A stretch of DNA of 64,000 nt from contig NC_049992.1 of assembly GCF_000003815.2 (NCBI RefSeq), forward strand, positions 12,125,786 to 12,189,785, in the 5' to 3' direction. The number at the start of each line of letters is the position of its first letter. Position 1 is the stretch's first letter. Positions 3,888-63,430 of this stretch are shown in pieces. Source of the DNA: Branchiostoma floridae (lineage: Eukaryota; Chordata; Leptocardii; Amphioxiformes; Branchiostomatidae). The notes under the pieces were generated by a model. That model was not told the DNA's origin. It ran no database searches and saw only the letters and a program-made list of their open reading frames with translations. The position numbers were made by a program, and so were the translations under genes.

Positions 3888-14581
<10,694 letters not shown>

Positions 14582-17500: not shown

Positions 17501-18086
17501 CTCTGTAGGGCTCCGACTAGGGCATGTTTTCTTTATTGATATAGTTACGTATGTCATGTTTTTCAGACCTTGCAACAAAAGTTGTGAGGGATGAGGCAAA
17601 CATTGACACTTTCATTAAAAGAAGATCGAAATGTGTTCAGAGAAAGATTAAGTATTTTGAAAAAGTTAGAATCTATCATGCATTTTCAATGAAGGTATTG
17701 TGCAAAACTGAGTGTCTTGGAAAGGCCTCTTTGAAAGCTAGATCCTAGGGACTCTTTACACTGAAGAAAAACTAGTGAAAGGGAGGAAATTGGCACTAAA
17801 TTGTCTACAAATCCAGCTTAAATCTATGTTTACATAGCTTATATGACAGCAAAGTTCACAATGAGAATCTTTACAACCCATCCTGGCAGCAGTAACAAAA
17901 GAACATATTCTATATCATGTACCTTTAAATGGCAAAAAAGGGATGTACAAAAGGAGTAAAGATCATGAAAAGTGGATCATTGAGGATAGAAATCCTAGTC
18001 CTATCAATATTTGATGTCCCTATGACTTGTTTAGAATTAGTAATGAGTTTTGTCAAGTATTACACAGTAGAGCTTGTGGACTGCAG
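14582..18086. other. PDE6D 3' UTR and intergenic DNA
   Basis: Downstream of the PDE6D stop the sequence is AT-rich without convincing exons. The 3' end of the transcript cannot be placed from sequence. A stretch near 17030-17085 (CTGTATCTGTAT...TAACACACCAGC) resembles one near 24860-24915, so it is a dispersed repeat. Confidence 0.5.
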
Positions 18087-18186
18087 AAGTGACAGTACAA
18101 CAGACCTGTGGAGGACAACTCACCCAGGGTCCCTGTACGAGCAGAAGTATGATGACTACACATCATTGAGTTTCCATGAGCGGAAG
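18087..18186 (+). CDS. candidate upstream exon of the adhesion GPCR (coding or 5' UTR)
   Basis: Bounded by CTGCAG and a consensus donor GTAAGT. The sequence composition is coding-like, in contrast to the AT-rich DNA around it. It is open in one frame, including SLYEQKYDDYTSLSFHERK, and its phase-0 end would join in frame to an acceptor at 20267 (TTACCAG) just before the receptor's signal-peptide ATG. It could therefore extend the N-terminus or be a 5' UTR exon; in another frame it contains the tiny ORF ATGATGACTACACATCATTGA split at the seventh codon. I do not recognise the peptide. It could also belong to an unrelated gene. Confidence 0.35.
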
Positions 18187-20276: not shown

Positions 20277-20833
20277 ATGGAGTCAAAGCAAAGAATCCCA
20301 AAAGGGGCATTGGCACTGGCATTGCTGGTCCTTCTAGGATTCTACAAGGGAGCTTATTCGAAAGGTATGGATTCCCGAAGTTGATTTCAAGACAGTTTTG
20401 GAAATACCTTAAGTTGACGCTTGTCTTTACCTGGTTGAAAATTAAAGACTTAAAATATAATTTCTTTCTGTTTCATGCCTGTATTATAGATTAATTCTGT
20501 AATTTTTGCTATACATGCTATATTTTTCTGAAGCCCACTTGAAGGTTCAAGATAGCATTTTTTAATACCACTATATGAATTTTCATCACCCAGTAAATTG
20601 CCAGGAGGGAAATGGCGTATCCTACCGAGGAACAGTCTCTGTGACTGAAACAGGCAAGACGTGTCAGCGCTGGGACAGTCAGACGCCTCATAAACACGAC
20701 ACGACACCCGCTAAATATCCGTCATCAGGGCTGGAGGAGAACTACTGCCGGAATCCGGACGGCTGGCACGAGATTTGGTGCCTCACCATGGATCCCAACA
20801 CCTGGTGGGAGCGTTGTGACATACCAGACTGTG
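20277..20833 (+). CDS. aGPCR exons 1-2: signal peptide and kringle domain
   Basis: Exons 20277-20364 and 20594-20833. Exon 1 encodes a basic start ([10 protein letters not shown]) and a hydrophobic core, a good secretory signal; an in-frame stop lies upstream at 20244. Exon 2 is exactly one kringle, residues 30-109, in a phase 1-1 exon. It has all six cysteines: NC, KTC, NYC, IWC, RC and PDC. The typical kringle blocks [17 protein letters not shown] and NYCRNPDG are present. Kringles bind proteins or lysine-like ligands; the aspartates of a lysine-binding site are not clearly present. Confidence 0.93.
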
Positions 20834-23800
20834 GTAAGGTCTGATTACCAAAAGACCTGCTGTTTGTAACTTCTGTATTAATGATCACAGATCCACATGT
20901 AAGGCTAGTTTACCTTTATCCGCAGGCCCGGGATATCCTTTATCCGTTGTATTCAAGACTGTTTCAAACTAAATACCTAACAAAAATGCAATTTGGAACC
21001 ACTGACCATCGACTTGATATCCCTAAATTTTTCCCTGTTTGTAAGTAAAACTAATATTAGGTTACCTCGCGGATAATGGTGAACTAGCATTACACTTTTT
21101 ATATTTCAGTATATCTAAGTTCTATATTTATGTTGTGTTATTAGTACACTTTTGATTGGATTGTGTTTCAATCAATTAAGTTAACTTCTTCTGCTATTCA
21201 TTATTCGTTATGTATGATCACTTCTTTAGTTTGACCTCTGACCTCTGCTTATTATTTTACGCTAATTATCCGCTAATTATCCGCTTTTGATGTTAAGTTG
21301 TTTCTTTTTCATTTCATGTATGTCATTTATTCTTATTATTATGACTCCAGGAAGAGTAGTGGCATGATTTTATGATGTACACTAATGGAGATCGCAATAA
21401 AACAAACAAACAAACTTCTTCTAGATAAAAAATTACCTGTATACACCAAATAATAGCCACATAAGCAACTGGACAAGATTTTGGACACAGTCAGACATTT
21501 CATGTAGCCTCCACTACCTTTCATCAGTGACACTGAGCAGACCTTTTGAAGAGCAGTAGTCATAGGAACCAAAACTGCTGCAAGTCAGACAAATTCAAGA
21601 CAAGGTTGATGCAAATGACTTGATGCAAATGGGTCAAATAGCTCCTGTTTGAGTGCAGGAGTTAATGTTGTCTTGCAGGGGTGAGAGCGCCAGGTTCCAA
21701 GTTCTGGAAAGTTTGGTACAATTAGGCCTCCTTTCCTACTGAAAATTCTCTTATGTGCTGTCTCTTTATCCAAACCAGCAGGGTTCGTGGTCAAGGATAT
21801 CAGAATTCTGTGGATTTGAGATTGAAATAGTGTCCATGTATATGCACTAGGCTCGTTCTCATTTAAATGTCGAAATGCTGTTGCCTGACTTTACGGCTTG
21901 ATATGGAGAAAATTATACTATGACAACATCACTGGTTCCTTCATTTGTCCATAACCCCTGTAATGTTTTACAAAAGATGCACAACAACATTCGTATTGTT
22001 TGATGACTTAGAAGATTATTATAGCCACGGGTGGGATTTCACACCCTAAAAAATGGCTGTCGCCTGAGAAGAAACGAAGAATTCAAATAGTAGCCAAAAT
22101 CTAACAATTCAGTTCCCAGAATGATTGTTCGGTAGGTAAAACCAGCTGACCAGGCCCTCTGACCGATCACGTCAGATCGCTCCTATCACTGATCTTGGAG
22201 GCTGTGTGAGGTGGTTTATGCCTGTTGCCAGATTCTGTAACAAACGTTACCACCACGAGTATGATGGTTGCCACGGTTTTATTATCCACGTATAAGACTA
22301 GAAATGCCAGTTTTTGTGACGCTGTACAGTTTTTCTCGCTTCCTAAAGAAACAAGAAAGGGTTGTTGACTGTTATTTGTATCCCACCTTGCTTAACAAAA
22401 TGTTGTACAGAAATGACTGTAACAAACGTTACCATTGTTCGATGCTGTCTTAGCTTTCTATCTGACCTGGTATAAAAAAGCTGCCCACTTTTCAAATGTC
22501 CATTGGGACATCCACTTATACCTAAATGATGTAGTCAATAAGGTAAGTCCTTTAGAAGAAAACAGGGTTTACTGTTGTAACAAACGTTACTGGTAACGTT
22601 TGTTACCTGCCCTGTAATGTATTACCAATGGGACCGAAAATAATAAGTTGCCATTTTTTGGCTACGGTTAAAAGAGGAATTTTCCTAAACAACCAGGTAG
22701 TTTTCACTGAAAATAAAGCCGATTTATTTTTCGACCCAAAAAATGCCATTTTCGACATTTCAATGAGAACGAGTGACTAATGAGTGCATACTTGGAGTGT
22801 GGGGGTTCGAGCTTTGGTAGCCAGTTTTTGTAGCCACACTTGTCTATTTTGTTTTGGCTTTGAGGTAATTGTGTTGTCTCCCCAGTGGAAGAGACTTTTA
22901 ATCACTGCCTGAATTTGTGTTTCAATCAGTGGTGCATGAGATTTGAAGGCCAGATACTGGTCATTATTGCAGGTTGCTATCCTTCTCTGTGATAGTAAGT
23001 GTCTAGCATAGGGATCATGACTAGACTCCTGTGTGAACTTGATGTTGTCATCTACAGTCAAACCTGTCTATAGCGGCCACTCAAGGGACGGGACAAATTT
23101 GGCCACTATAGACAGGTGGCTTCTGTATAGAGGTGGTAACTTGTAGATAAAATACCCAAGGGACCGACAAAAAGTGGCCACTATGGACAGGTGGCCCCTC
23201 TGTAGAGGTGGCCCCTAATACAGGTTTGACTGTACCTGGTTGATATAGTGAAACAATCAATGAAATAAGTTTGCAACCAGCGACACAACATAGAGTACAG
23301 AACTAAGCCTCCTCAAGCCCTTCTTTGTTATCTAATTTATCTATTGTGATTGGAGGTTTGAAACTCAAGCTCCTATTTTTATTGATCTTTGATAATAAAA
23401 GAATTAACCCAATGACTCCCACCCCGGACACTCTTTTTTTGCTTGATCATGAAAACATTGCCTTACCTTCATCATGTAAATTTCATGTGCTGCTTGGTGT
23501 AAGTGAAGTTGACTGGCCAATTTTTCACCTCACACCTCACATCTGTCCTACTATTATTTAGACCACTTGTGATCATTTGTGCATTTAGCCTACGGATATG
23601 GACATGCAATAAAGATTATTATCATTCTTCTCCACAAGATTACAATTGGCTGCAGAGATCCAGTGACTGGGCAATTGACGCAACAGTAACACAGTGGCCC
23701 CAAGCTGCTGGTGCCGACAAAGTTCTTGACGGTAATTATTATTCCCACTGGAACCCAAGTGGTCGAGGCCCGTGGTACATCATCTTCGACCTTGTTGGGC

Positions 23801-26800
23801 CTTACACACTTTCTAAGATCGGCATCACCAACAACGGAGACACAACCCATGACATTTCAAAGTTCCGGCTCCAAACATCGGTAACGTCTGATCCATACAA
23901 CTGGGAAGACGTGGTGACAGTAACAGATGTGGCAGCTTCATCTGAGTTACAGGAATTTGGGGGCTTCTCCGCCACCGGTCGATTCTGGAAATTCAATGCC
24001 ACAGAAACATATGGGACCTGGCAGCCTTGGTTACGAGAGGTGAACTTCTTTGGAGCAAGGGCAGGTAGGTTCATTTCAAGCTCTAACATTTCATGTAGCC
24101 ATCAATGATAGTGTACAATTTGACTAGTGCATTATCAAGCATACAAAATGTACAAGAGAAGTGTTTATCCCAGTAAATCAGTTGTTTTTTGAGCTGTCCC
24201 ATAAGCTCTTGATCCTGTTTTATTAAGATTAGTGAGATCAGATTTATGCAGCATTTAGTAACAGCATAGTTGTAAATGCCTATTATTATAGAGGCTTTGC
24301 AATTATATTAGAGTGTCATAATGTTTATGTATGTGTGCATAAGCTTACACTGTGATCATTGTCATTCTATAACACATGTCAATCTGAGCCAGTTTTCTTC
24401 AGGGCAACTTGTGACCATGTTGCTATTTTAAACCAATGTATCATAATTTTCAATCACGATTTGCCTTAAATTTGCCTCTTCCAGACGAGTTCCTATTGCA
24501 CTGATCAAATCTTGATACTGTGTAGTCAGCTTTTCACTGTGTACATTTGTGGTACCTACACAATGTAGCTCTTGACTATGATCAAAGAGGTATCCTTATA
24601 TTTATGCAAGTTCTGGCCATGTGGAATCTTCTGCTTGCTAAATTCAGAATCTTATTGTAATAAAAATTGTAGTCATGACTAATTCTAGTCAGGTCACAGA
24701 ATGTTGGGAAAGGTATTAGTGACCATACCTAATGGTATTTGAAAACTTTTCATATTGGTGTGCTTGAATAAGGTACATGTGTGTACCATAGCCTGTAAAT
24801 AAAAGTGTCCGCAATGAATATATCAGTTTGCTTCCAACGAGGTTTTTTACTCTGTATCAGATTCTGTATCTGTATCCATATAGCCGATATAACCGCCCTT
24901 TGGCATAACACACCAGCTGCCTTTCAAGTTAAACTGCAGGTTGGAGTGCATAGTGTTTTTGAGTCATTCTGTAAGCCAACCTTGATGGTCCTTGATTGAA
25001 GCCAAAATGCTGCTCATTTTTTTTGGAAGGCACCCCAGCTGTAGATTTTGTCTAATTCATTCTCTGGAAAGAATCATCATGGCTGCATGATGTTGTATAA
25101 ATTGCTTGTGTACATCGTCCCATGTTCCGTGTTTAAAGGCTTGTGGCCATTTTATTTAAGGAAAGACAGTTGTGAAGTTTATTGGTTTTTAGAATAACTA
25201 TTGAGTCTTGGTACATTTGTACTGGCATGGATTGTTTGCTGTTCAGTTGGAGGATAGAGAGTACCATGAATAGTTTGATCAGGTTAGTGAGTCACTGAAT
25301 AAAGAGACTCTTTTTACACAACCCTTTATTTCCAGCACCAACGTTTCCTTACACGTACACTCAGTAAAATGTAATAACTAATCCATCACCCAATGTAGGA
25401 CCAGTTGGTACCAGTGCTTTAGTGAAGGTTGACCATCTACATTGTACTCCATGTCTGAAAGGTTTTCCTTTAGGAAATGAAACCTTTAATGCTGAATATT
25501 GCGACTCAAGGATTTTACTCAAGACAGCTTGGTCATTGAAGGCTTAAAAAAGGCTGACTTTTGCTGGACATTGCAGTTCAACTGATATGTTCCTAGCAAA
25601 TTCTACATGCTTTTATTTTAGGAGCTGACATGTGTGGACTGTCAACATTTCGCCACGTCCCACAAACCGACTGTTACAGTGATGACAATTTGGCCATCCA
25701 CTATGGTGTAACCCTCCAGTTCTGTGCAGTTGCCTGCTGTGCAGCGTCCTCATGCCTGTCCTTTCAGTTCAACTCCGGCTCCAGCTGCTATTTGAAAAGA
25801 AAGCTCTGCTCCGATGAGGAGAAAGTGAGCACAGCAGTCGGGAACATGTACGATTGGTCTTTAGTATCAACCCAAGGTTTGTGCACATCCTCATCTTTTG
25901 TCATAGGGAATCATCATCACATTTCTTTTGTACATATAGTTTATAGACATGATGTTAAGGTTGTCAAACGATGTCTTAGTTTGATCTTGTTGCAAAGCTC
26001 CTCATGACAGGTGTATTAAGCATTGCATTTTCCAGATCTCTAAGATTAAGCAGTCTAACCCAAGGATACTAGTAACCCCAAATTTTGATATCATTTGCCA
26101 TCTTGAGAGAAAGAGGGCCTTCGAAGAAATGAAAGAGACTTATTAGTATAGAAAAAGAAGAAAAGATATAATTGACGTATGGTAATGATGTTATAGTCAG
26201 ATAAGCTTCATACAGGAAAGAATATGCTAGACCCTTGGATACCTGTTAAGCCAGGTAATCATACGTCATAATGTATATCAGCTTGTACACATTAAAAGTA
26301 CAGCTGGTTGCTTCACAGAGAGCACATGCTCCTTCATATCATGGCACCAAAGTTATTTTTGCTTTTCTGGTCAGCTGCAAGTGATGGCCCGAGGAACATA
26401 GCTCTTGGCATGCCTGCTGCACAGTCAAGTACTATCGCAGGCCTTGGTGCTGAGTTAGGTGTGGATGGTGACAGAGGCAACTGCTTCCATACTAATAGCG
26501 ACTCAAATCCCTGGTGGCGTGTGGACCTCGTTTTATCCCGGCGGATTGATCGGGTTGTCATCTTCAACCGAATGGACGGATGGACCTGGCAGCGGCTTGA
26601 TGGCTTTAATGTCTATGTCGGAGATAACGAAAGAGTCCAGGACAACCCATTGTGTGCAGCCAATCAGCCAGTACAGACCAAGGAAAGCAACTATACCATC
26701 AGCTGTTATGGGCTGTTGGGGCAATATGTGGGGATTCTCATACCAAGAAGGGAGTACTTCCACTTGTGTGAAGTTGAGGTGTATGAAGGTACATATGCAT

Positions 26801-29800
26801 ATGATTCACCCACATTATTTCATGCCACAAGCAGTAAAATGTAGCTGTAATTTTTACATTATCTACAGTCACTGTTCCTGCATCAAAATTAAAATGTTTG
26901 ATGTAATCTAGTTGTCATTTTTCTATAGAGTATAGTGTAATACAGTGCAAAACTCTTATTAAATTAAATGTGAATAGATAAAGCATGTTTTAGAACACTT
27001 GTATGATGAAATATTGTTATCTAGTCTCTGAAACTAGAAAAATGGTTCCTGACTAATTGTGTCGGAAATGTTTAGGAACATTTCTTTTTCACATATAATC
27101 AAATACATGATAGGAATAGATATTTGACTAATCTCGATTCCCTATTTGGAATTCTCTTTGAAGCCAGAGACAGGACCAATCTTGCTTTGGGTCAGCCAGC
27201 TGAACAGTCAATCACTGTTTACGGCAGTTTTGCACATTTAGCTGTGGATGGCAACAGAGATGCAGTCTTTTATCATGGATCTTGTACCCACACATTGGAT
27301 GGGAGCAGCAATTGGTGGCATGTTGATCTGGGCACCAGCTACTTTGTTGATGAGGTGGTGGTGTTCAACCGGCTGGATTGCTGCTTCACACGGCTGGATA
27401 ACTTCATGGTACACGTCGGGGATAATCCAGTGGTGATGCTGAACTCCCCGTGTGAGGCTCAACAAAGGGTAACAACAAACCAAGTTGGCTTTCCAGTGGA
27501 CTGCAGAGGCCTGAGGGGTCGGTATGTCGGGATCCACCTCCCAGTCCAAGGGTCACTGACATTGTGTGAAGTTGAAGTATATGGAGGTGGGCTGTTTGCA
27601 TTCAATTTGTCTCTTACAGCTCTCAAGCTACTGTTCATTGCAGATGGACACACTTGTTCCCTGTCAATGTTACTGTGAATCACCCAAATCTACAACAGTT
27701 ACTACATCCTCATTGTAGGGTCTAATAGTATGCTGTCTTGATGCACAACACAATAACTTTTGCTTTCATAATCACTGCATGGAATGATGACCACCCACTG
27801 GCTGGAAGGTAACCAACAGGAAAGCCTGCAAACTTTTTTGCCATCACTACATCCATCCCGGTGTCCACAACACTGACTTCCTCAATAGATAAGCTGTAAT
27901 AAATGCTGTATGCTGACTGTTGTGACTCTGAATTTGAAACAGTAATCTTTACATGTTTTGATTCAATGTTACTTTATGCCAACAACAGTACTAATGTTAC
28001 CTCAACAGTTAGCCTTTTGGGAATTATCTCTAACTATCAATGTTATACCCCAGTAACAAGTCTTTGTGTTAGCAATCACAGTTGATCTTTAAAAGGAACA
28101 GCTCTATTCTGATCTAAGGACACATTCCAGCAATTCAGTGCAAAAAGAGGATTGAATTGATGGATGGAACAGTTAACAATGATCATTAATTACACAAAAG
28201 TTCATTCATTTTTCAGAAATGGATCCTTCCAGTACAAAGGAGTTCATCATAGCATTTCCAGAGAATTTTGAGTACAAGGAGGATCAGACTACCATGTTGT
28301 TCATCACTGGTGCAAGGTCCACCCCTTCTTCTATTGAGGTTGACGTTCCTTCCACTGGCTTTTTCACCTCCGTCAGTGTTACATCCAGCGAGGTCAGTAA
28401 TTTTTCTTCTTCTTGTCCCAACTTAGTGTAAATGTGGGTCATTGTCACTGCCTGAAAGTTTTAATTAGTTCTTGACACAGGTGATAATGAGCAGAAATTT
28501 AGTAAACATTGGGTGATAAGTCATAAGTTATAACATTGAGTAATTTATAAAAAAAGTTGTTATCTGAATGATTGCAATGGTCGTAACTTCCTGTTTCAAA
28601 TCTAGCACTACTGATTTACAATATGACAAAATTGCAGAATTATTAAGAAAGTACATTTTATTAACAAAAACTATGCATTCAAAAAGTTTTCATTTAGTAA
28701 ATGAGCAATAAATCCTTTGGAGATGCAACTACTATAAGATACATTCACGATGTAGGTACTAGGCTTTCCCGGACCTGTCAGTGAAGAAGGAACATGCTTT
28801 GTGTGGAGAACATTTCCACTTTGTTTTACATTTTACAGGTTGCTGTTGTTGAACTGCCCCGAGCTGGTGTGGAGCTGAAGGGAAGCCAGACGGGGAAAGA
28901 AGCTGTCTCAGTCAGAGCAGACAGCCCTATCATGGTGTACGGCATGTCTCATGATACCTTCTCCGTAGATGCTTTCCTGGCATTGCCAACAGACGTCCTT
29001 GGAACTGAATACTACGTCATCTGTAGCGAACCATCATCTGAAAAGATACAAGGAAAAACAACAGTTTATCCCACAGGTGTTAAATACTATTCATTCAATT
29101 TACCTTCTCTCTGTCCTCACTATAACATTATCTAAAATGTTTTAGCAGGAATGTTGTTTGTAGTCAATTATCCTTCCAGCATGTTGTAGGTAGATTAAGT
29201 TTAACAGTTAAAAAGTTTTGTATATCAAAGCTGCAGTGTGTACCATTAAGTAGGGATTTACATGTGCATATCAAGCACAGCTTGAGATTATTCCTTCATA
29301 GTATTTCTTTGTGAAGTTTCATTCAATGATTGAACAAAATGACTTTTTCTGTTGAAGGAAAAAATATGTCAAAAACCTCCTGACAGTTTCAATGAAGTCT
29401 GTGCCTTAGTCACTAACTAGCTGGTGTGACAACCATCGACATAACAGAGCACTTGTGGCCTTCCCTCTAACATGTAGGGTACTTGAAAGTATCACAGTCC
29501 TCAGGATGGGATATTGAGCCTTGACCCTGTGTTCATTGTACTTGACAAAATGAGCTAGGTATATATAGCAGTTCCTCAGCACAATGATCTGGTATATATC
29601 ATACTGTCTGGTCATGGCCATTGGAAGTCTCAAAGTCTCAAAGGTTAGCTCTTCAGTTGGCTTACTAGTAACTGGTTCGAGATCCTATCACTTTACACAT
29701 GAAGTCTTTATGGAACAGATCTCCTGTCATTATGTGGCTAAGTAGACAGGGCTGTAGAAGAAATGGTTATTAATGATATTGAAATTTATTTTTCAGAGTT

Positions 29801-56800: not shown

Positions 56801-59800
56801 CAACCAATAATCTCCAAGCAGATCCTACGGTGCCCTAAGATAGTATCAAAGCTGGCCAAGGAGTGTAGCCGACCAAGGGAGTCAAACGGGCACCTACGGA
56901 AAGTTTGATACTATACATTACGCACCGTGGATCTGGTTCGAGATTAATCAACCAAGTGCAGATCAGAACGCAGTGGTCAGTGATTTGATTTAGTTTTCAT
57001 TTTCTGTTAATCCATCGAACAAAACTTTATTGACAAGCTGATGGCAAAGCACAAAAAGTTTAATTGTATCTTAAGTCAGTGTGTGGCCTTTTCAATCCAG
57101 ACTAAGATTGTTAGCGTTGACTTATCACAGAAGTTAACAATCTTTTTTGCTCTCCCTGAAGTGCCGGTGATATCAGCGTGGATGTCCTGGTCTGCCTTTG
57201 ACGACTGTTCTGAGACCTGTGGTGGTGGACTACAGATCAGGAGAAGACAGTGCAATGGTTCATCATGTGTTGGAGAGGCTGAGGAAATAAGAGAGTGTCA
57301 TGAGGAGCCTTGTCCAGGTTCAGATGTTTGAAAATTTGTTTTTAGTTGTTAAGGTTGTGTGATATTTGTAACATCAAAGCTCTTTAGTAACATTATGTAA
57401 TGATAGATATTCTGACTGTGGCGAAAGAGAGAGAAGACTTAATGAAAAAGAATAATTGACAAGACATTTTTGTGTCTCATATCTAAAACGGTAACATAGG
57501 AAATTTTGTGACATCATGCAACAACAGCTTGCAATGTCATACTTTCACAAGTCAGCATAAGTTCCTCTGTTGCTTTGAATTCTCCTTTCGACTGTGGTCA
57601 AAATCTTCTTTACAGAACTATGCAGATAAAAAAAAATTACTAAATTAATATCACAATGTATGAAACTTTTGAAAACAGTTGACATATTTCTTCCACTCTG
57701 CAGCTAATGGTACATGTATTAAGACCAATAAAATTTCTATTTTTAAAAGTCCATGGAGGATGGTCCATCTGGAGTCTATTCACTGCCTGCACGGTGACCT
57801 GTGGTCCTGGTAACCAGACCAGAACACGCAACTGTACCAACCCTGAACCTGCACTGGGAGGCAATAGCTGTCCTGGAGATGATGATGGACATGGACATGA
57901 AACACAGATCAGGGATTGCTTTTTGAAAGAGTGCCCTGGTATGTTCTTAAAAAATCTTCCCTTATGCAATGTAGATTAAGATAAAGGCTGTGTATTATAT
58001 ACAATGTAGTCTGTCTGGAACTTTGCAGGAATAAGATTTCACAAATGATGTGCAAGAATCTATGATCTGTAAGACTGGCTTCGATGTAATGATAATTATA
58101 ATGCATTGAGTAAAATTGCATGTGAAGATGGTCCAATCTTACTTTTCTTATTAGCTTTTGAATTTTGGCAACATATTTCACTAAAAGATGTGGTAGATTT
58201 ATACCTGTCCAGTACAATGAAAATAGTTTATTTTGACCTTAATGTATAATACCCAACCTTGTTCTACAGCCTTGCCTCCACCACCTACATGGTCTGAATG
58301 GTCTCCATTTGGCCCCTGTTCTGTGAGCTGTGATAATGGCACTCGGCAGAGGCATCGAAATTGTTCATCGGAAAACTGTGAGGGACCTGACATAGATGTC
58401 CAACAGTGTTTCCCATACCCCTGCTATGCAAGTAGGTTTCACAACCCTCTTATTGATTGTCTTGTTGTAACGTCTGTTGTAACAGTACTGTACTTTGCAT
58501 AATTTCCCCATCACAAATTATATATTATGCATGCATCTTAATGTTATTTTGCAATGTGCATTCTCTATAGCCCCTCCCGTAGATGGCATGTGGTCAGCTT
58601 GGTCGGAGTACAGTCAGTGTACGGTAACTTGTGGAGGAGGAGTGATGCAACGTACACGGGAATGTGCGGACCCTTCACCGACACACGGTGGCAGGCCATG
58701 TGAGGGAGACAGAGAGGGTCTCGGGATGGAGGTCCAGTATCTTGCCTGCAATCTAGCAGCCTGCAACGCATCAAGGCCTCCTCCTGACAATGTTGGAAGT
58801 TGGTGTCCTTTTCTTTTACCATAATTACTACTGGAAGGGATAATATGTGCATGTAGCTTTAGATATTGGAATACACAGCCTCGGCAGTTGCTAACATGAT
58901 CTTGGAAATACAACATTATCTTGGAAACAGAATAGCCACACTGAACGCTTAGAAAACCTAACAATATTAAGAATACATAAAGTTTTGCTTAGCAGGAAAC
59001 TTTGAATAGGATTATACTTATAGCCTTCAATTTCATGGGTAATCTAACTAAAATCCTGTTGTTACGTTGACAGTGTGCCCAACAGTGATAGGAACAAACA
59101 ATCAGGCCTGGCCAGAAGCTGCTGCTGGGGCCGTACAAACAGTCATCTGCTATAGAGGTGGGTTAACTTCATAACTTGATCAACATCCGACTTTCTTTAA
59201 ATCTACTAAATAACTCCTCTCTTTTTCCTACCCTTCCACATGGTCTCAAGCACCCATAGCTCACAGACTCATCCTAGTTCTCAAGGTACAGTAGGGCTAA
59301 CGGTGAAGAAAACTGTCTTTCAACGTCTTTATTCATGCTCTATTATATGTATCAATATATAGATAATGTACTTTGTTTATCATCCATGTTTGATAGACTT
59401 GTCACACAACTATACACAAGGAAACAGCTAATTAATGACATGTTGTGTAGTGGCCATAAGTCATTATAATAAGAGAGCTTAATAATGATGATTGACCACT
59501 TCCAGGTGTGGCCAGACGGAAGTGCAGTGAATACTCTCAGTGGGAGGCAGAGGACTTCCAAGACTGTGTGTCTGAGATCATGGCAGAGTTTGTGGATAAG
59601 GTAATACATGTACCAACATATTAGAAAAAGATTTTTAGTGTGTCCTGTGTGTCCAAATCTTATCCAAGTGTGTCCAAGTGTTATGGAGCCTTGATTTAGT
59701 ATTCCAAGATAATAATAAGCAACATGACATTAAATGAGAAACAAGAGAGAGAAACCTAGTGCAAGAGCATCAGTAAGACAGTATTGGGTTCAAGGGTTCT

Positions 59801-62800
59801 GTAGAATACATAGCGTACATTGTGTCTTTTTCTGTTTCAGCTAAATGGACCTCTCCAAGATAATCTAATCCCAGTACAAACAGTCCAAAATTTGGAGGCA
59901 AGCCTGGTAGCTGGGGAAGCCTCAGGGTTTGGGGATGTCAGCGCTGCAGCAAAGGTTATAAAAACACTGTCACAGGGAGACCTTCTCAATGTGGCAGATG
60001 GGACGCTTTCAAATAAAGACACGTTCATAAGGGTATGTGACACTGACATTTTAAGAGCAGATAAGGCCACACCAATTTAATTTCTTGGTTCACGGATTCG
60101 CTCGCTCCTATTTTTTGGGAAAAAAAATAAAAATAAAAATTACCACTCAGCAAATTTTCACCATTAATGAAACCATTCACCAAGTTTCTGGTGTAGCAAA
60201 CATAAAAACTGACACTACTTTTGTAATTTTCAATGAACAGGTGCTGTTACTGTACAGTAATAGTGTTTTTGTACTTTTTTCAAGCTGAAAACTTTTTATT
60301 CTTTATGTTTTGGATTAGCCCTTACCTTTACCCCAACCATTTTACAATTTTTATTTTTATTTCGCCCTCTCGCTCCATATTTTTTATGAAAAAATCCGTG
60401 AACCAAGAAATTAAATTGGTGTGGCCTAACGATAAAAAATAAGCTTCTATCAGATATATCAACTCTGCCATATCCTTTTCAGCTTGAATGAGGCATGAAA
60501 ATTTTAGGAACAGAATGTTTCAAGCGAAATATGGTCCCTACAGTTTGTTACAATTCCGTAAGCTTTTTGTACACTTACTGAGTTTTATCATGTACATTAT
60601 TTTATAGGGGCTTGTTGGAAGTGTTGATTATCTACTACCAGATGAAAATGGAGACTTTTGGCCCACCAGCAAGCAGGTAAGGCTAATGCTGCTGTAGATA
60701 CTTTCCCCCACAATGTAAGTTTTATGCAGCAATTATACTTCATCTGTCAGCAAATACAACATGCAATCTCTTATTTCACATATCTATTAATAAGTGTACA
60801 TGAATCAATGTATAATTTCTGCAAGACTCTGCAATTTGTCTTGCTATTTGAGGACCTGCAATGTAGTGATTGTAAGAAATACCTGACAACCAAGGAGCTA
60901 GGAGTTGGCACTGTCCATGGTGCTGAATATTGGGTTAACATCCTCTGCTGGTTAGCTGATACATGTTGCACCTTATATCTTATAATTCTTAATGTATCTT
61001 GAAGATGCCTTTTTAATATGCTTTTTAAAAAGCAGCAGGATTCACAGTGTTACCATGTAAGAAGTTCATTTTATTATTTATTCTGATAATACATTCACTG
61101 TAAGGAAACAATAGATGACATTATCTGTGAACTATTCCTATACTACAGAAAGATGCAAAGGATCATGTGACGTCACTTATCAACTCAATGGATGATTTTG
61201 GTTCCTCGATTGTGAACTACTTGTCTAATGTCGGAGAGGACTACGTCACAGTGCATAAGAAAAATATAGGTAAGTGTTCCTTTTTCTGCAAGACAGATAA
61301 GCACACACTTAAGATAATGAATTTCAAATAGTTAAATTTGAAGTTGTATATCAATTCTATATTGTTATCTCACTGTTTGAGTTTACTTTCTTTCCTATCT
61401 TGCTGACGAGTTCACATACAAGTAGGGTTACACTTCATCATCATCATTACACTTTTTACATTACACTTAATTCTATCTAATAGTGGCAAATAGAGAAAAA
61501 AAAGCCCCTTAAGTGAGATTTTACATTTGCCATTATATGTTTTGAACTTAAGACTGCAGGGAAAGAGGGAATGCAAACAACTTGTTTATTTTTTGTTGTT
61601 GTTAGAACTGGATGCAGCTGTAGTCCCAGCAAGACAGCTTCTGGAGTCCGTAACACAGCCGAGACCCCCCACATGGGGTCCAGCACCACCGGACAAGAGC
61701 AAGATCACAATTCCAGCAGAGGCCTTTGCTGAAATCTTGACGAGTTATCCAGGTAAGCAAGGACAACAGTTACAAATGTTGCTATTCTTGCATGTGGCCT
61801 AGACAGTGCAAAGGGCTTGACAAGCTAGTATTTTTTTCAATGACATATTTGTTTGTTTAACTCCAGAGGAAGAGGTGAGCAGCATTGGAGTGGTCACTTA
61901 CAAGATGATGCACTTTGACAAGATTTTGGAGAGTAACAACATACAAAGGTGAAGAGCTCTATAGTGCCAGGAAATCTAATGTTATTTCTGTTGTCAGTTG
62001 TGCATAGTTGTATTGTTATGCCTCTAACAAAATGAAGCATTTTATGAATGATGCATAGATTTAATATTTTTGTTAATAACAAGTTAAGATTGAGTTAAGC
62101 TGCTGAAGCTACTATTACCTTTGAGTGTAACATTCTCCAGGCATATCTATGGGAATCGGACATTGAACGGCCCTGTCTTGAGTACCGTCATCTATCCTCC
62201 ACCAAAAGAGGCACTGCTCAATCCTGTTACCATCAAGATACACCACACAAAAGTGAGGCTTTTTGGCATACAGTGTATATGATCATGTTGATTTACATAG
62301 AGGCACTTATTTTTCCTTTGCATTTATGCAGAATTTTCTACATATTAATTTGAGCCTCCTTGCAAACTGGTCATCTCAGAAAGATTACATTTTTTGTCAG
62401 TTTTTTACCTCCTTCTTTGTTGTATTCAGAGCTTGATTACATTTGCACTCATGTCATAATTTTTTAAGATTTATTTTTCTCCACTTGTTGTAGATGGCGA
62501 AGAACCCGCTATGTGTGTACTTGGACTATGAAGACCAAAATCGGTATGTACAATATTCCATGTAGTTGAACATCATTTCCCCTTGTGTGCTATTAAAGCT
62601 ATCGTTTGAGGCAGTGACAACAGTCCCATTTTGAGGTTATTGAAGCTGTTATGGACAGGTGTACTTTCTCTGTGGTTATGAAGAAATCATGGCCAACCAA
62701 TTTTCAAAGTCTGCACAAGTTACTATTCACATCAGAGGCATATTTCACAAAAGCTACCTACTACATTTATAGGAATCATGAAATGTTTTGTTTCTATTCA

Positions 62801-63430
62801 AGATGCATACTCAATGCATGTGTCATTATTACACAGTTTATTCAACCCATCTGGGTGTGAGGTGAGGGAGAGGAAGAAGTCCTACACCATCTGCCAGTGT
62901 TTCCACCTCACAGCGTTTGCTGTCTTAACAGAACTGGTCACACCAGTAAGGGCTTTCCTGCATTTACAACACTCACGTAGTCCAAGATATTATTTTGCAG
63001 TCTTCTCGTTTTCTTGTGATCGTCAATGTTAGTTTTACAACATTTTTACATATTTAATCGCCGATATTTTTTTCTTACAGGAACCAAAAGTCATGTTACC
63101 GACTACTAACCTTCCATGGATTGGCCAGGTTGTTGCCATGGCAACACTGAGCATTACACTGCTGATCTTCCTATGGCTCAGGTATATTGTTGCCTACACA
63201 GTTCCTGACAGTTTGACAGTTGTCTTTACTTCATTTTAAAATGTAACAGGGCAAAATCAAACAATAGCTAGGAGCGAAACCTAACATGGAGAAATCTTTT
63301 GTTAATAATATTTTTTTTCAATTTCAGAACTCACCTGGATACATCTGGTTACCTATTCCTACTCCTCACAGTCTGTCTGTTGGCCATTGAGGTCACCATC
63401 TTTGTAGGGATGGAAAAAACAGACAAATGG
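20277..63430 (+). CDS. giant multidomain adhesion GPCR (family B2), 66 coding exons, 3' end outside the window
   Basis: A self-cleaving cell-surface receptor with an ectodomain of about 3,800 residues. Sixty-six exons join in one frame with GT-AG sites (one GC-AG); exon 22 runs into a gap. The start is the ATG at 20277, giving a signal peptide with the core [13 protein letters not shown]. Order: kringle, F5/8C-like, PAN, two F-type lectins, IgGFc-binding, F5/8C, C-type lectin, split unnamed domain with nested C-type lectin, F5/8C, SUEL, two TSP1, MAM, CPW-WPC-like, CUB, two PAN-like, six FN3-like, six TSP1, HRM, GAIN/GPS, TM1-TM2. HRM-GAIN-7TM is the adhesion GPCR core. The SUEL domain and the TM2 end (FVGMEKT, compare IGIDKT) recall the latrophilin group; the TSP1-HRM order recalls ADGRB/BAI. 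I know of no receptor with this whole set. Ligand and G protein cannot be inferred. Confidence 0.92.
20904..21088. mobile_element. MITE, CTAGTTCACCTTTATCCGC family (copy 1)
   Basis: Left end GCTAGTTTACCTTTATCCGC and right end GCGGATAATGGTGAACTAGC form terminal inverted repeats. The same ends occur at 45369-45580. No coding capacity. Confidence 0.75.
21340..21418. repeat. retrotransposon-like 3' tail with (CAAA)n
   Basis: A stretch ending CACTAATGGAGATCGCAATA followed by AACAAACAAACAAAC resembles the 3' ends of CR1/L2-type LINEs or their SINEs. Assigned from general appearance only. Confidence 0.35.
21852..22773. mobile_element. ~920-bp element with CTCGTTCTCATTT terminal inverted repeats
   Basis: The left end CTCGTTCTCATTTAAATGTC and the right end GACATTTCAATGAGAACGAG are inverted repeats. 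Inside, the word TAACAAACGTTACC occurs at 22238, 22420 and 22578 (last base diverged in the third copy), and its inverted form GGTAACGTTTGTTACC follows at 22592. No transposase frame is visible. Confidence 0.65.
23053..23234. mobile_element. MITE, TACAGTCAAACCTGT family
   Basis: Perfect terminal inverted repeats: TACAGTCAAACCTGT at the left and ACAGGTTTGACTGTA at the right. The interior has diverged repeats of GGCCACTATAGACAGGTGG. Elements with these ends are common in invertebrate genomes. Confidence 0.85.
23639..24064 (+). CDS. aGPCR exon 3: F5/8C (discoidin)-like domain
   Basis: One phase 1-1 exon of 142 codons, residues 110-251. It has the galactose-binding-like pattern: an [13 protein letters not shown] loop, a WYIIFDL strand, TLSKIGI, a W of NWEDV, FWKF and a final LREVNFFG. 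It lacks the paired cysteines of coagulation-factor F5/8C domains, so it looks more like the carbohydrate-binding CBM32-type variant. Ligand unknown. Intron 3 behind it (24065-25621) shows no exon; it holds a diverged copy of the TAACACACCAGC repeat near 24890. Confidence 0.75.
25622..25876 (+). CDS. aGPCR exon 4: PAN/apple domain
   Basis: Phase 1-1 exon, residues 252-336. The pattern DMCGLS...DCYSDDNL...[17 protein letters not shown]...CYLKRKLC is typical of PAN domains: an alpha-helix with CxxxC pairs, followed by a beta-strand with a further pair. PAN modules bind proteins or glycans. Confidence 0.75.
26375..26788 (+). CDS. aGPCR exon 5: F-type lectin (fucolectin) domain 1
   Basis: Phase 1-1 exon, residues 337-474. 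[14 protein letters not shown] at the start, [21 protein letters not shown] and the end [11 protein letters not shown] are the standard F-type lectin landmarks. The fucose-binding motif has the histidine, then 26 residues, then R-M-D, but a Q where the last R/K is expected (an R follows one residue later), so binding may be altered. Two further cysteines (PLC and ISC) match the family disulfide. Confidence 0.88.
27164..27586 (+). CDS. aGPCR exon 6: F-type lectin domain 2 with intact motif
   Basis: Phase 1-1 exon, residues 475-615, tandem duplicate of exon 5. [21 protein letters not shown] and [11 protein letters not shown] are conserved. The fucose-binding signature is complete: H, 26 residues, R-L-D, four residues, R. 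Two adjacent cysteines (RLDCC) sit in the loop next to the sugar site, as in eel agglutinin, where a vicinal disulfide stacks on fucose. This domain is likely to bind fucose. Confidence 0.9.
28217..32293 (+). CDS. aGPCR exons 7-12: IgGFc-binding domain and Asp-rich calcium loops
   Basis: Exons 28217-28392, 28839-29076, 29797-29955, 30299-30504, 30732-30853 and 31782-32293 (phases 1-0-1-1-0-2-1), residues 616-1086. Landmarks of the IgGFc-binding family (as in FCGBP): [10 protein letters not shown] at the start, [62 protein letters not shown]. The C-terminal part of exon 12 is very acidic: [15 protein letters not shown] and [14 protein letters not shown], resembling EF-hand/TSP3 calcium loops. 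FCGBP-type proteins occur in mucus. Introns hold an (AATAC)n repeat at 30178-30208 and a foldback MITE at 31303-31468. Confidence 0.85.
31303..31468. repeat. foldback MITE, GTCAGACATTT family
   Basis: Hairpin whose arms carry ACTATCTTTCGTCAGTGACA and its rough complement AAAAGATAGC...GAAATGTCTGACTG. Relatives lie at 42929-43066 and, degraded, at 21465-21560. It lies between exons 11 and 12. Confidence 0.6.
32294..32999 (+). other. aGPCR intron 12
   Basis: No exon seen. A (TTTA)n tract at 32778-32800 followed by CATCTTTAAACAGATGGGTAG looks like the reversed 3' tail of a retroelement. Confidence 0.4.
33000..35230 (+). CDS. aGPCR exons 13-15: F5/8 type C domain
   Basis: Exons 33000-33181, 34739-34888 and 35092-35230 (phases 1-0-0-1), residues 1087-1243. 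Classical discoidin features: first cysteine in [59 protein letters not shown] with the closing cysteine. F5/8C domains bind phospholipid, collagen or glycans. The exon structure is the standard one for this domain in animals. Confidence 0.92.
33684..34022. repeat. local direct duplications next to an assembly gap
   Basis: A segment from 33684 (TCATACATAATATCATCCTT...AACTCAATGTA) recurs from 33789, and ACTATGTAATACTTGTAGGA...CATACTT at 33863-33904 recurs at 33981-34022 directly against the N run. This looks like tandem repetition or mis-assembly at the gap edge. It is intronic. Confidence 0.7.
34023..34275. other. assembly gap (253 N)
   Basis: A run of N inside intron 13. The flanking exons join in frame, so no F5/8C exon needs to be missing here. 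Confidence 0.99.
34276..34735. mobile_element. SINE-like element (partial)
   Basis: Contains GGAGGTCCCGTGTTTGAGGA, which resembles a tRNA-derived B box region, followed by GTTAAAGAACCCACCACACT, a phrase seen in SINEs of marine invertebrates. The left part is lost in the gap. Assigned by recollection of the family. Confidence 0.45.
35621..36321 (+). CDS. aGPCR exons 16-17: C-type lectin-like domain 1
   Basis: Exons 35621-35789 and 36074-36321 (phases 1-2-1), residues 1244-1382. CTLD landmarks: [75 protein letters not shown]. The sugar-binding triplet reads EPS rather than EPN or QPD, and the WND box reads WVD, so calcium-dependent sugar binding may be weak or lost. Confidence 0.92.
36343..36530. 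mobile_element. near-perfect hairpin MITE just after exon 17
   Basis: Ends TATACCCCCCTCACATTAGG and CCTAATGTGAGGGGGGTATA. The arms of about 85 bp are almost completely complementary (GCGATTCGATC...GATCGAATCGC). It starts 21 bases after the last base of exon 17, immediately behind the splice donor. Its near-identical arms point to a recent insertion. Confidence 0.9.
36873..37076 (+). CDS. aGPCR exon 18: first half of an unnamed domain
   Basis: Phase 1-1 exon, residues 1383-1450. Pattern [47 protein letters not shown] recognise this as the first half of an unnamed Cys-poor module common in lancelet and other marine invertebrate proteins (SGL...MGTY...RPVYKH...YIY...WYIG...). The expected second half (small-residue loop, aromatic strand, closing V.C) does not follow directly; it is found in exon 21. 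Confidence 0.65.
37120..37213. repeat. foldback MITE-like element (copy 2, short)
   Basis: Carries GATTTCTACCAGGGCTCATT and GAGTGCAAGGAGTCCGGTAG AAATCGGAT, the same outer blocks as the element at 441-650, around a short CCCTAAAAAAGGG stem. Confidence 0.6.
37856..39157 (+). CDS. aGPCR exons 19-20: C-type lectin-like domain 2 (nested)
   Basis: Exons 37856-38123 and 39036-39157 (phases 1-2-1), residues 1451-1580. CTLD landmarks: [68 protein letters not shown]. No EPN/QPD triplet and no WND aspartate, so it is probably a protein-binding CTLD. The two exons total 390 nt, so skipping both would keep the frame and fuse exon 18 to exon 21. Confidence 0.9.
38124..39035 (+). other. aGPCR intron 19 with CpG-rich, promoter-like stretch
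   Basis: The region near 38320-38660 has many CpGs, a CRE-like TGACGTAA (38556-38563), a TATAAAA box (38584-38590) and an E2F-like GGCGGGAAA (38593-38601). No exon was seen. It may be an internal promoter or an inserted element. Confidence 0.4.
39623..39733 (+). CDS. aGPCR exon 21: second half of the unnamed domain
   Basis: Phase 1-1 exon, residues 1581-1617: [19 protein letters not shown], then [13 protein letters not shown]. This matches the expected C-terminal half of the module begun in exon 18 (G-rich loop, ..P...W......W...P.L.V.C). The closing cysteine would pair with the cysteine of exon 18. Confidence 0.6.
40405..41534 (+). CDS. aGPCR exons 22-24: F5/8C-like domain 2 (interrupted by gap)
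   Basis: Exons 40405-40522 (runs into N), 40985-41137 and 41384-41534, starting and ending in phase 1. Landmarks: [16 protein letters not shown], then (after the gap) [53 protein letters not shown]. The third exon lacks the usual closing cysteine (VLGLLPQ in place of LGC). About 20 codons and the first donor are lost in the gap. Confidence 0.88.
40523..40622. other. assembly gap (100 N) cutting exon 22
   Basis: A round-number gap, probably of unknown true size. It removes the end of exon 22 and its donor. Confidence 0.99.
41894..42181 (+). CDS. aGPCR exon 25: SUEL / galactose-rhamnose-binding lectin domain
   Basis: Phase 1-1 exon of 96 codons. The family signature is present: [18 protein letters not shown] (YGR box), [10 protein letters not shown], and the ending [18 protein letters not shown] (DPC and KYL boxes). 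This is the domain by which latrophilins bind teneurins and FLRTs and by which fish and urchin egg lectins bind rhamnose or galactose. The spacing [13 protein letters not shown] is normal. Confidence 0.95.
42655..44091 (+). CDS. aGPCR exons 26-27: TSP1 repeats 1 and 2
   Basis: Exons 42655-42801 and 43945-44091, both 147 nt and phase 1-1. The W-x-x-W-x-x-W-x-x-C ladders are [10 protein letters not shown] and [10 protein letters not shown], each followed by a CG box and the remaining four cysteines. The tryptophan ladder is the usual site of C-mannosylation. Intron 26 holds two adjacent MITEs (42929-43066 and 43069-43382). Confidence 0.93.
42929..43066. repeat. foldback MITE, GTCAGACATTT family (copy 2)
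   Basis: Arms GGATATGATTTTGGATATGG...CAGACATTTCAGATA and TATCTAAAATGTCTGACGG...CCAAAATCATATCC are complementary. It abuts the CAGGGCTC element on its right. Confidence 0.75.
43069..43382. mobile_element. nonautonomous DNA transposon, CAGGGCTCGAAAT family
   Basis: Ends CAGGGCTCAAAAT and ATTTTGAGCCCTA with imperfect 5-bp duplications CAGTT / TAGTT. Clearly homologous to 6402-6762 but in inverted orientation. Confidence 0.8.
44495..45953 (+). CDS. aGPCR exons 28-31: MAM domain
   Basis: Exons 44495-44611, 44732-44885, 45204-45315 and 45887-45953 (phases 1-1-2-0-1). MAM landmarks: [75 protein letters not shown]. The first intron must use a GC donor (CAAG/GCAAGA); no GT donor keeps the frame. MAM domains mediate adhesion. 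Intron 30 carries a MITE at 45369-45580 and a 42-bp tandem duplication at 45718-45802. Confidence 0.88.
45369..45580. mobile_element. MITE, CTAGTTCACCTTTATCCGC family (copy 2)
   Basis: Ends GCTAGTTCACCTTTATCCGC and TTGGATAAAGGTGAACTAGC. An inner inverted pair GTGGTTTCAAATTTG / CAAATTTGAAACCAC surrounds the centre. Same family as 20904-21088. Confidence 0.8.
46458..46643 (+). CDS. aGPCR exon 32: CPW-WPC-like domain
   Basis: Phase 1-1 exon of 62 codons with six cysteines in the CPW-WPC order: C, then [33 protein letters not shown]. The AP..Y.G.C block and the WPC end are the hallmarks; the CPxGW box is altered to CPVASGW. The family was defined on apicomplexan surface proteins. Its presence in an animal receptor is unusual. 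Confidence 0.75.
46780..46960. mobile_element. MITE with CCAGGTGCCATTATACCGCC ends
   Basis: Left end CCAGGTGCCATTATACCGCC and right end GGCGGTATTATAGCACCTGG are inverted repeats. It lies in intron 32. No coding capacity and no clear target duplication. Confidence 0.8.
47256..47450. mobile_element. MITE with TACTGTAAATGCA ends
   Basis: Left end TACTGTAAATGCA, right end TGCATTTACAGTA. The interior repeats ACCGCGAAATTAAATCC three times, with related TTCGCGG words. It lies in intron 32, 60 bp before exon 33. Confidence 0.85.
47514..48363 (+). CDS. aGPCR exons 33-34: CUB domain
   Basis: Exons 47514-47602 and 48084-48363 (phases 1-0-1). CUB landmarks: [67 protein letters not shown]. All four cysteines are present, and the aspartates of the calcium site (C..DSL.FYDG) are kept. 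Confidence 0.93.
48925..50193 (+). CDS. aGPCR exons 35-37: two PAN-like domains
   Basis: Exons 48925-49194 (phase 1-1), 49618-49766 and 50067-50193 (phases 1-0-1). The first has [48 protein letters not shown]. The second has [28 protein letters not shown]. Both show the helix with CxxxC pairs and the following strand with an aromatic-tyrosine pair seen in PAN/WSC-type folds. The assignment is moderate. Confidence 0.65.
50581..54779 (+). CDS. aGPCR exons 38-47: five FN3-like repeats
   Basis: Exons 50581-50829; 51152-51294 + 51700-51853; 52042-52172 + 52475-52495 + 52563-52689; 53508-53616 + 53893-54053; 54340-54494 + 54638-54779. Each unit begins in phase 1 and, except the first, is split inside the repeat, the usual FN3 pattern. 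Shared landmarks are an early P, a W in the second strand (IKW, IRW, LTW, VTW) and L..GT.Y before the last strands. The first unit is degenerate. Exon 42 is only 21 nt. Exon 39 uses a weak donor (GTTACT). A minisatellite fills intron 43. Confidence 0.78.
52722..53150. repeat. ~33-bp minisatellite
   Basis: About a dozen imperfect copies of a unit like ACCTTCCATATTGTTCTGTC CTTGGTGCTGAAT. It begins some 30 bp after the donor of exon 43; a stray copy lies at 53726-53771 in the next intron. Long open frames across it are artefacts. Confidence 0.85.
55034..55360 (+). CDS. aGPCR exon 48: FN3 domain 6
   Basis: A single phase 1-1 exon with a canonical FN3: [50 protein letters not shown]. It has several N-glycosylation sequons (NKT, NNS). 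An insertion rich in K, N and T sits between strands B and C. Confidence 0.9.
55937..58798 (+). CDS. aGPCR exons 49-54: TSP1 repeats 3-8
   Basis: Six phase 1-1 exons: 55937-56128, 56537-56707, 57162-57317, 57750-57938, 58270-58431, 58571-58798. Ladders: [60 protein letters not shown]. Repeats 4, 6 and 8 have the RxRxC.NP..x.GG..C pattern of group 1 TSP1 domains. The donor of exon 54 is uncertain: A/GTTGGT at 58798 keeps the frame. Intron 50 contains a small MITE at 56820-56934. TSP1 arrays next to HRM-GAIN are typical of ADGRB receptors. Confidence 0.93.
56820..56934. repeat. short inverted-repeat element
   Basis: Ends AGATCCTACGGTGC and GCACCGTGGATCT, with inner complementary words ATAGTATCAAA / TTTGATACTAT. 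Probably a small MITE. Confidence 0.65.
59074..59600 (+). CDS. aGPCR exons 55-56: hormone-receptor motif (HRM) domain
   Basis: Exons 59074-59157 and 59506-59600 (phases 1-1-0). HRM pattern: [42 protein letters not shown]. Four cysteines and both conserved tryptophans (WP and QW) are present. In adhesion GPCRs this domain stands directly before GAIN. Confidence 0.88.
59841..62945 (+). CDS. aGPCR exons 57-64: GAIN domain with GPS autoproteolysis site
   Basis: Exons 59841-60032, 60608-60676, 61149-61269, 61606-61752, 61867-61948, 62141-62252, 62494-62543, 62837-62945. The helical subdomain A starts after HRM; subdomain B includes [21 protein letters not shown] and [10 protein letters not shown]. 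The GPS is LCVYLDY...SGCEVRERK...[12 protein letters not shown]. The cleavage triplet H-L-T is intact, so the receptor should split before T and expose [12 protein letters not shown] as a tethered agonist. The two tryptophans of the usual GPS (FWD and WS) are replaced. Confidence 0.9.
60065..60426. mobile_element. MITE with GGCCACACCAATTTAATTTC ends and TAA duplication
   Basis: Left end GGCCACACCAATTTAATTTC and right end GAAATTAAATTGGTGTGGCC, extending inward to TTGGTTCACGGAT / ATCCGTGAACCAA. A 3-bp TAA flanks both sides, as in PIF/Harbinger elements. It lies 32 bp after the donor of exon 57. Confidence 0.85.
63081..63430 (+). CDS. aGPCR exons 65-66: TM1 and TM2 (gene continues)
   Basis: Exons 63081-63181 and 63328-63430 (phases 0-2-0). 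TM1 is [20 protein letters not shown]; a short basic loop RTHLDTS follows; TM2 is [21 protein letters not shown]. The ending [10 protein letters not shown] resembles the FLIGIDKT segment of latrophilin-group adhesion GPCRs. TM3-TM7 and the tail are outside the window. Confidence 0.88.

Follow-up and report, generated by a model that had tools for sequence, protein, structure and literature searches.

Do the exons between positions 20277 and 63430 of this stretch of the Branchiostoma floridae genome belong to one receptor, or to several neighboring genes? The initial annotation of the window (the whole stretch of 64,000 nucleotides that was analyzed; all positions refer to it) described a giant adhesion GPCR with about 30 extracellular modules. 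Public gene models divide the same region. We asked how far the reading frame extends, how the public models relate to it, which modules are supported, and what kind of receptor this could be.

The reading frame and its extent

We modeled the gene by dynamic programming, with a splice model that was self-trained on the window, and then corrected the result by hand. The corrected model is a single open frame of 65 exons on the + strand (20277-63430) that encodes 3822 amino acids without a stop codon. This bears out the earlier coordinates and the earlier statement that all of the exons from the signal peptide to the second transmembrane helix share one frame. The initial annotation had named a stop and a new start between exons 12 and 49 as an example of what would argue for separate genes, and the frame requires neither. 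The gene continues past TM2: six further exons (66-71) lie beyond the window, at 64453-66158 if its numbering is extended (G000:C14:12190238-12191943), and end in a stop codon. The full gene has 71 exons and encodes 4064 amino acids with zero internal stops, and 39 of its 70 introns are in phase 1. The exons within the window, and one exon upstream, are as follows (P0001, P0002, P0006, and P0010 are public lancelet gene models, described below):

17929..18186, + strand: 5' exon of RefSeq LOC118430131 (P0010); tblastn 100% over residues 1-86
20277..20364, + strand: exon 1, start Met and signal peptide; read by eye, inside P0010
20594..20833, + strand: exon 2, kringle; Pfam 3.1e-26
23639..24064, + strand: exon 3, F5/8 type C; Pfam, 108/142 identical in P0001
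25622..25876, + strand: exon 4, PAN-like; PAN_1 21.7 bits alone versus a cut-off of 21.4, below the cut-off in context
26375..26788, + strand: exon 5, F-type lectin (fucolectin-like) module 1; PF22633 and motif scan
27164..27586, + strand: exon 6, F-type lectin module 2; Pfam and motif scan, contiguous Cys-Cys
28217..32293, + strand: exons 7-12, IgGFc-binding; IgGFc_binding 1.1e-72, ending in a MopE-like motif at 0.032, below the cut-off
33000..35230, + strand: exons 13-15, F5/8 type C; 1.3e-25
35621..36321, + strand: exons 16-17, C-type lectin 1; Lectin_C
36873..37076, + strand: exon 18, first half of an unnamed module; no Pfam family, conserved in P0001
37856..39157, + strand: exons 19-20, C-type lectin 2, between exons 18 and 21; Pfam, P0010 ends here
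39623..39733, + strand: exon 21, second half of the unnamed module; in P0001 it is conserved and follows the C-type lectin
40405..41534, + strand: exons 22-24, F5/8 type C; 2.4e-17, exon 22 enters the gap at 40523-40622
41894..42181, + strand: exon 25, SUEL (rhamnose/galactose) lectin; 8.1e-19, YGR and DPC...KYL
42655..44091, + strand: exons 26-27, two TSP1; Pfam
44495..45953, + strand: exons 28-31, MAM; 1.9e-9
46458..46643, + strand: exon 32, CPW-WPC, a single phase 1-1 exon; Pfam 1.5e-13, NCBIfam TIGR01492 9.8e-12
47514..48363, + strand: exons 33-34, CUB; 4.4e-25, end corrected
48925..50193, + strand: exons 35-37, two PAN-like, the second weak; Pfam
50581..55360, + strand: exons 38-47, FN3 region; fn3 2e-28 in 3 stretches, with two weak modules and exon 38 assigned only from its position
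55937..58798, + strand: exons 48-53, six TSP1; 5e-55 in 6 stretches
59074..59600, + strand: exons 54-55, HRM-like, weak; 0.0031, 18.3 bits versus a cut-off of 26.2
59506..62945, + strand: exons 55-63, GAIN, with the GPS motif in exon 63; GAIN 5e-14, GPS 4.4e-10
63081..63430, + strand: exons 64-65, TM1 and TM2; Pfam, with TM3-7 and the stop outside the window

Before the hand edits, the splice score of 20201-63431 was 794.5 on the + strand (68 exons) and 135.7 on the reverse strand (50 exons), while ten first-order Markov copies of this region scored 0 to 2.5. As its codon table comes from training on the + strand, the program is biased towards that strand. When run on the whole window, it fused 90 exons, including upstream exons with PDE6D. 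Since the program readily merges neighboring genes, the open frame alone does not prove that this is one gene.

The hand edits were as follows. Exon edges were adjusted against P0010 and P0006 (exon 6 starts at 27164, exon 34 ends at 48363, exon 47 starts at 55034, and exon 53 starts at 58571). The window has two runs of N, at 34023-34275 and 40523-40622; the part of exon 22 that is lost in the second was replaced by 64 N, which bridges one assembly gap, and P0001 reads across this gap. The program's three TSP1 exons were discarded and 56537-56707, 57162-57317, and 57750-57938 were used instead (a start at 57746 for the third was rejected because it breaks the frame). Each of these three exons has one edge with a weak splice score (0.7, 1.2, and -0.1), and all three are matched at full length by P0002. 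Five exons of the splice run were dropped (36362-36469, 37152-37202, 56242-56288, 57101-57166, and 63921-63992). In intron 2, 23058-23135 looks coding, but it was rejected as an exon because it is repeat-like; a second similar unit accompanies it.

Upstream exons of the splice run (323-18186) were excluded as PDE6D, chance, or 5' UTR. PDE6D adjoins our gene on the same strand, at about 8804-13902 (GMP_PDE_delta; in a Pfam scan of the upstream DNA that covered two of the six frames, one frame matches at 7.7e-22 and the other has a weak piece). We infer that the 5' exon of LOC118430131 is 5' UTR that is open by chance and that translation starts at the methionine at 20277.

Public gene models of the locus

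Four public lancelet models jointly span the gene, and none of them contains all of it. P0010 is the B. floridae RefSeq model LOC118430131 (1632 amino acids). It covers exons 1-19 and matches our model of these exons at 1540 of 1543 aligned residues. P0001 (3299 amino acids) is a lancelet model that extends from exon 3 through the complete 7TM domain, with omissions: it lacks the kringle, exon 4, exons 7-11, most of exon 12, exon 15, and exon 33. P0002 is a B. lanceolatum model named "HMCN1" (2149 amino acids, exons 24-66), which starts at an internal methionine of exon 24 and ends inside the 7TM domain, at about the end of exon 66. P0006 is LOC144884937 from B. floridae x B. japonicum (2041 amino acids, exons 29-71). 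It starts at an internal methionine of exon 29, within MAM; BLASTP gives 97.5% over 1821 positions, and its C-terminal residues are identical to those of our gene. P0001 is named as PDE6 delta, which is the name of a neighbor. Together with the PDE6D gene just upstream in B. floridae, this suggests that the neighbors are conserved, but it also suggests that the annotation mixes neighbors.

For each of the 70 exon junctions, we recorded which of the four models align gap-free across it, over five residues to the left and to the right. At least one of P0010, P0001, P0002, and P0006 reads through 69 of the 70. (The match of P0010 at junction 19 was discounted as that model's false end, and junction 2 was counted for P0010 only, as the match of P0001 there has no identical residue.) Junctions 1-4, 7-12, 14, 15, and 17 are read by P0010 and by no other model, and P0010 is a model of the same genome. 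The weakest junction is 19-20, which is read through by P0001 only, and that model has additional residues there.

In three of the four models, a start or an end falls within a domain, at a different place in each, so the models look like fragments of one gene. Might there be two or more adjoining genes that are joined only on paper? Phase 1-1 exons easily join in frame; the splice program merged PDE6D too; the models from B. floridae, B. lanceolatum, and the floridae x japonicum hybrid are each partial; and just the one model supports junction 19-20. However, the break points differ between models and fall within domains, P0001 bridges the breaks, and a strict scan (phase 1, donor >4) found no first exon resembling a signal peptide between exon 1 and TM2. 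(A looser scan found 15 start-donor pairs in 20365-63000 and an equal number, 15, on the full 66 kb of the reverse strand.) We consider separate genes to be very unlikely.

The end of P0010 suggests another explanation. This model stops at a TAA (38134-38136) that is 10 bases past the donor of exon 19, in the middle of C-type lectin 2. The gene might have two products: a soluble secreted protein from exons 1-19, made by polyadenylation in intron 19, and a receptor that is either full-length or shorter and starts downstream. A single AATAAA/ATTAAA hexamer lies at 38822, ahead of exon 20, and the starts of P0002 and P0006 in exons 24 and 29 could be read as downstream starts. But the RefSeq end would cut a C-type lectin in half, the downstream models start at internal methionines within domains, and exons 19-21 are read through by P0001. 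Also, we estimate that one hexamer per ~900 bases is near what is expected by chance. Two products are possible, but somewhat unlikely.

The initial annotation assigned all of these exons to one receptor. The single frame and the overlapping models agree with this, although the public models divide it, and in B. floridae itself the division is at exon 19. From these sequence comparisons, the locus is most likely one adhesion GPCR gene that public annotations divide into pieces.

Modules of the ectodomain

The predicted ectodomain contains 27 modules of 13 kinds that are supported by Pfam: kringle (1), F5/8C (3), F-type (2), PAN (2), IgGFc (1), Lectin_C (2), SUEL (1), TSP1 (8), MAM (1), CPW_WPC (1), CUB (1), fn3 (3), and GAIN (1). 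(The Pfam search prints the best stretch only, so the assignment of stretches to exons is partly our own reading.) Four more modules are weak matches below the cut-off: the PAN of exons 36-37, the FN3 of exons 39-40, the FN3 of exons 41-42, and the HRM, or hormone-receptor motif, which is found in many adhesion GPCRs. Two others have no family match, namely the "FN3" of exon 38, which was named from its position only, and the unnamed module of exons 18 and 21. With the weak and unmatched modules there are up to 33 of 15 kinds, so the previous count of about 30 modules of at least 14 kinds was fair. After the signal peptide, the order is kringle, F5/8C, PAN-like, two F-type, IgGFc-binding, F5/8C, C-type lectin; then half of the unnamed module, C-type lectin, the other half, F5/8C, SUEL, two TSP1, MAM, CPW-WPC; and then CUB, two PAN-like, the FN3 region, six TSP1, HRM-like, GAIN/GPS, and 7TM.

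Which of the lectin modules could bind sugars? C-type lectins that bind sugars have an EPN or QPD motif along with WND. The two C-type lectins are clear members of the family (Lectin_C x2, Pfam 5e-37), but a motif scan of exons 16-17 and 19-20 found neither EPN nor QPD in either of them, and among these exons, WND is present in exon 17 only. In the SUEL module (exon 25), YGR and DPC...KYL, which we take to be the motifs of this family, are kept in the window and in P0002. P0001 is incomplete at exon 25 and lacks both. In F-type module 2 (exon 6), we found His-X26-Arg-X-Asp-X4-Arg, which has the spacing of His52/Arg79/Arg86 of eel agglutinin (an excerpt of PMC5712786). The text of this excerpt gives the F-type motif as HX24RXDX4(R/K), which is at odds with its own residue numbers (these correspond to X26); exon 6 agrees with the residue numbers and not with the written motif (PMC5712786). 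The cation motif of F-type lectins, hhDGx, is matched by AVDGN (read by eye). In module 1 (exon 5), the last Arg of the basic triad is one residue late in the window, but it is exactly placed in P0001.

Thus, the "dense" set of glycan-binding modules in the initial annotation is backed by the fucose-site spacing in exon 6 and the SUEL motifs in exon 25, but as both C-type lectins lack EPN/QPD, the glycan reading is narrower than first stated. At least one fucose-type site and one rhamnose/galactose-type site look usable, as judged by their motifs. The remaining lectin modules may bind protein or may have lost sugar binding. The receptor as a whole may sense glycans, and the surface sensor for microbes, mucus, gametes, or matrix that the initial annotation suggested would be a putative role.

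The CPW-WPC module in exon 32 exceeds the cut-offs of both Pfam (51.8 bits versus 23, profile positions 2-58 of 59) and NCBIfam (TIGR01492, 45.6 versus 35.6). In a profile search of the 513 Mb genome, with 7 candidates scored, it was the one match; this search ignores introns, so a copy that is split by an intron could be missed. The module is also present in the other lancelet models (5e-12 in P0001, 5.7e-16 in P0002, and 61 of 62 residues identical in P0006). No solved structure matches exon 32 at E up to 10, and the AlphaFold prediction for this exon alone has a mean pLDDT of 44. A full-text literature search for CPW-WPC with Branchiostoma found no paper. In an excerpt of PMC11285972, this domain is called specific to apicomplexans and chromerids, plus one protein from a dinoflagellate. 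The proteins of Plasmodium and its relatives have five CPW-WPC repeats and are zygote/ookinete proteins with signal peptides (an excerpt of PMC3637178), whereas here there is one copy in a chordate receptor. The module might be of the alveolate type, acquired by lateral transfer or retained here alone among animals, and might act as one sensor of a multi-lectin pattern receptor for marine protists, microbes, or mucus, with signaling via a tethered agonist. We consider this scenario to be speculative and unlikely.

The unnamed module (exons 18 and 21) has no Pfam family, and among the 129 fetched proteins that were searched, only P0010 and P0001 matched it. A complete C-type lectin cassette (phase 1-1) apparently separates its two exons, and P0001 has the same order (unnamed half, C-type lectin, unnamed half). 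From look-alikes of the module and from the symmetry of the phases, we presume that the C-type lectin was inserted and split the module. We also note that two other lancelet proteins resemble exons 3-4: the F5/8C and PAN-like modules of P0016 match these exons at 59% and 74%, and those of P0028 are shared with them as judged by eye. The contigs of P0016 and P0028 have the same lengths as those of P0006 and P0001, respectively, so exons may have been copied between genes on a single chromosome.

Signaling and relatives

The C-terminal half of the argument concerns the GAIN domain and the seven helices. The GAIN domain (PF16489) scores 52.7 bits versus a cut-off of 26.5, and the GPS (PF01825) contains the tripeptide HLT, with the expected cut between L and T. 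Both this motif and TAFAVLT, the putative tethered agonist, are retained in the window and in P0001, P0002, and P0006. According to an excerpt of PMC13197933, the consensus for adhesion GPCRs is His-Leu/Ile-Ser/Thr at the cleavage site and TxFxxLM for the tethered agonist. HLT fits the former, and TAFAVLT fits the latter except at the last residue, which is T instead of M. The GAIN/GPS is thus of the cleavable kind, in accordance with the earlier suggestion of a self-cleaving receptor. Within the window we see only TM1-TM2, but with the DNA beyond it, the complete 7TM domain matches 7tm_2 (PF00002) at 7.3e-25 over profile positions 7-249 of 250. By our estimate, the C-terminal tail is short, with ~40 residues past the last helix.

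Compared to P0001, the 7TM domain is the best-conserved block (258/288 identical), followed by GAIN (304/354), CUB (80/93), and the second TSP1 block (297/349), with lower values for SUEL (36/62) and exons 13-24 (388/564). Because CUB and the second TSP1 block equal GAIN in this respect, the signaling part does not stand out by its conservation. This pattern, along with the short tail and the very long ectodomain of matrix type, would also be expected if the protein is mostly a structural or adhesive glycoprotein that uses seven helices as its anchor and signals little or not at all. We think that this is unlikely, as the 7TM domain is the best conserved of all and the agonist sequence is retained in all three models that reach it and in the window.

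Instead, we propose that the gene encodes one adhesion GPCR of 4064 residues, with an ectodomain of ~30 modules, a GAIN domain that would cut itself, seven helices, and a short tail. We hold this to be probable, with room for doubt. The unity of the gene, the domains, the GPS, and the agonist sequence are supported by sequence analysis; the cleavage, the activation by pull, and the ligand are what we infer from them. The GAIN domain would cut between L and T of HLT, and the N-terminal fragment would form a long rod. The F-type lectin, SUEL, and other modules would hold on to glycans or glycoproteins that are immobile, such as those on microbes, in mucus, or in the matrix. A pull on the N-terminal fragment, or its loss, would then free the tethered agonist TAFAVLT, which would activate the seven-helix domain.

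What are the closest relatives of this receptor? When the GPS-7TM part was compared to its own genome, 8 of 11 matches belonged to exons of the gene itself. Of the three remaining matches, the best had 8.2e-5 and 29% identity, so we found no close second copy in the genome. (The genome has at least 119 matches to 7tm_2 and 62 exon-level matches to IgGFc_binding.) Among solved structures, the nearest GAIN-7TM sequences are latrophilin ADGRL3 and ADGRD1 (115 and 101 bits, phmmer against solved chains), whose ectodomains are unlike that of our gene. BAI/ADGRB receptors have TSP1 repeats next to HRM and GAIN, and CUB is present. This layout resembles that of our gene, which has many extra modules. 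The chains of BAI3 and B2 (382 and 449 amino acids, which we took to be without the 7TM) gave weak matches to the GAIN part, at 25 and 18 bits.

Closer parallels are found in lancelets. Among the best 120 of 219 homologs of exons 1-21, six amphioxus proteins combine a kringle with 7tm_2 as our gene does: P0032, P0036, P0045, P0048, P0062, and P0071. As here, five of the six have Lectin_C and five of the six have the F-type-like PF22633. They are shorter (1220-1903 amino acids), and unlike our gene, each lists PF00057 or PF01033, which we take to be LDLa and somatomedin B. Their precomputed Pfam lists do not include IgGFc_binding, SUEL, MAM, CPW_WPC, CUB, FN3, or TSP1, but these models may be partial.

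Similar modules are also found on another class of receptors. The kringle of exon 2 is identical at 58 of 78 positions to the kringle of PKD1L3 from B. lanceolatum (P0003), whose contig differs in length from that of P0002. Between them, the lancelet polycystin-1-like proteins P0003, P0024, and P0049 share kringle, F5/8C, C-type lectin, SUEL, or IgGFc_binding with our gene. Both P0024 and P0049 list GPS, and P0024 (from B. belcheri) combines IgGFc_binding with GPS and polycystin-type domains. Going by the Pfam names, we take the membrane part of these three proteins to be of the polycystin channel/PLAT type and not 7tm_2. As kringle and IgGFc_binding are also present in polycystin-1-like proteins, two receptor classes appear to share a kit of modules.

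The initial annotation knew of no described adhesion GPCR with this set of modules. Our literature search for adhesion GPCR, Branchiostoma, and IgGFc-binding together found no paper either. However, parts of the set were already reported in 2008: in an excerpt of the B. floridae GPCR survey by Nordstrom, which found 37 adhesion receptors, some amphioxus adhesion receptors carry kringle, somatomedin B, C-type lectin, SRCR, CUB, or discoidin domains (PMC2246102). The gene is most likely a single unit of unusually composite makeup, and an extreme new version of a type of lancelet adhesion GPCR that was already known.

If this is correct, then public gene models can conceal such receptors by splitting them, and a domain that is described as apicomplexan/chromerid is now found in a chordate, which raises the question of its origin. 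The gene would also widen the known range of adhesion GPCR ectodomains. According to an excerpt of PMC4284660, the amphioxus lineage has the fastest exon shuffling among metazoans, and its gain of domain pairs is 10 to 100 times faster than the metazoan norm. Here, the assembly of a signaling receptor by exon shuffling could be followed in a single gene.
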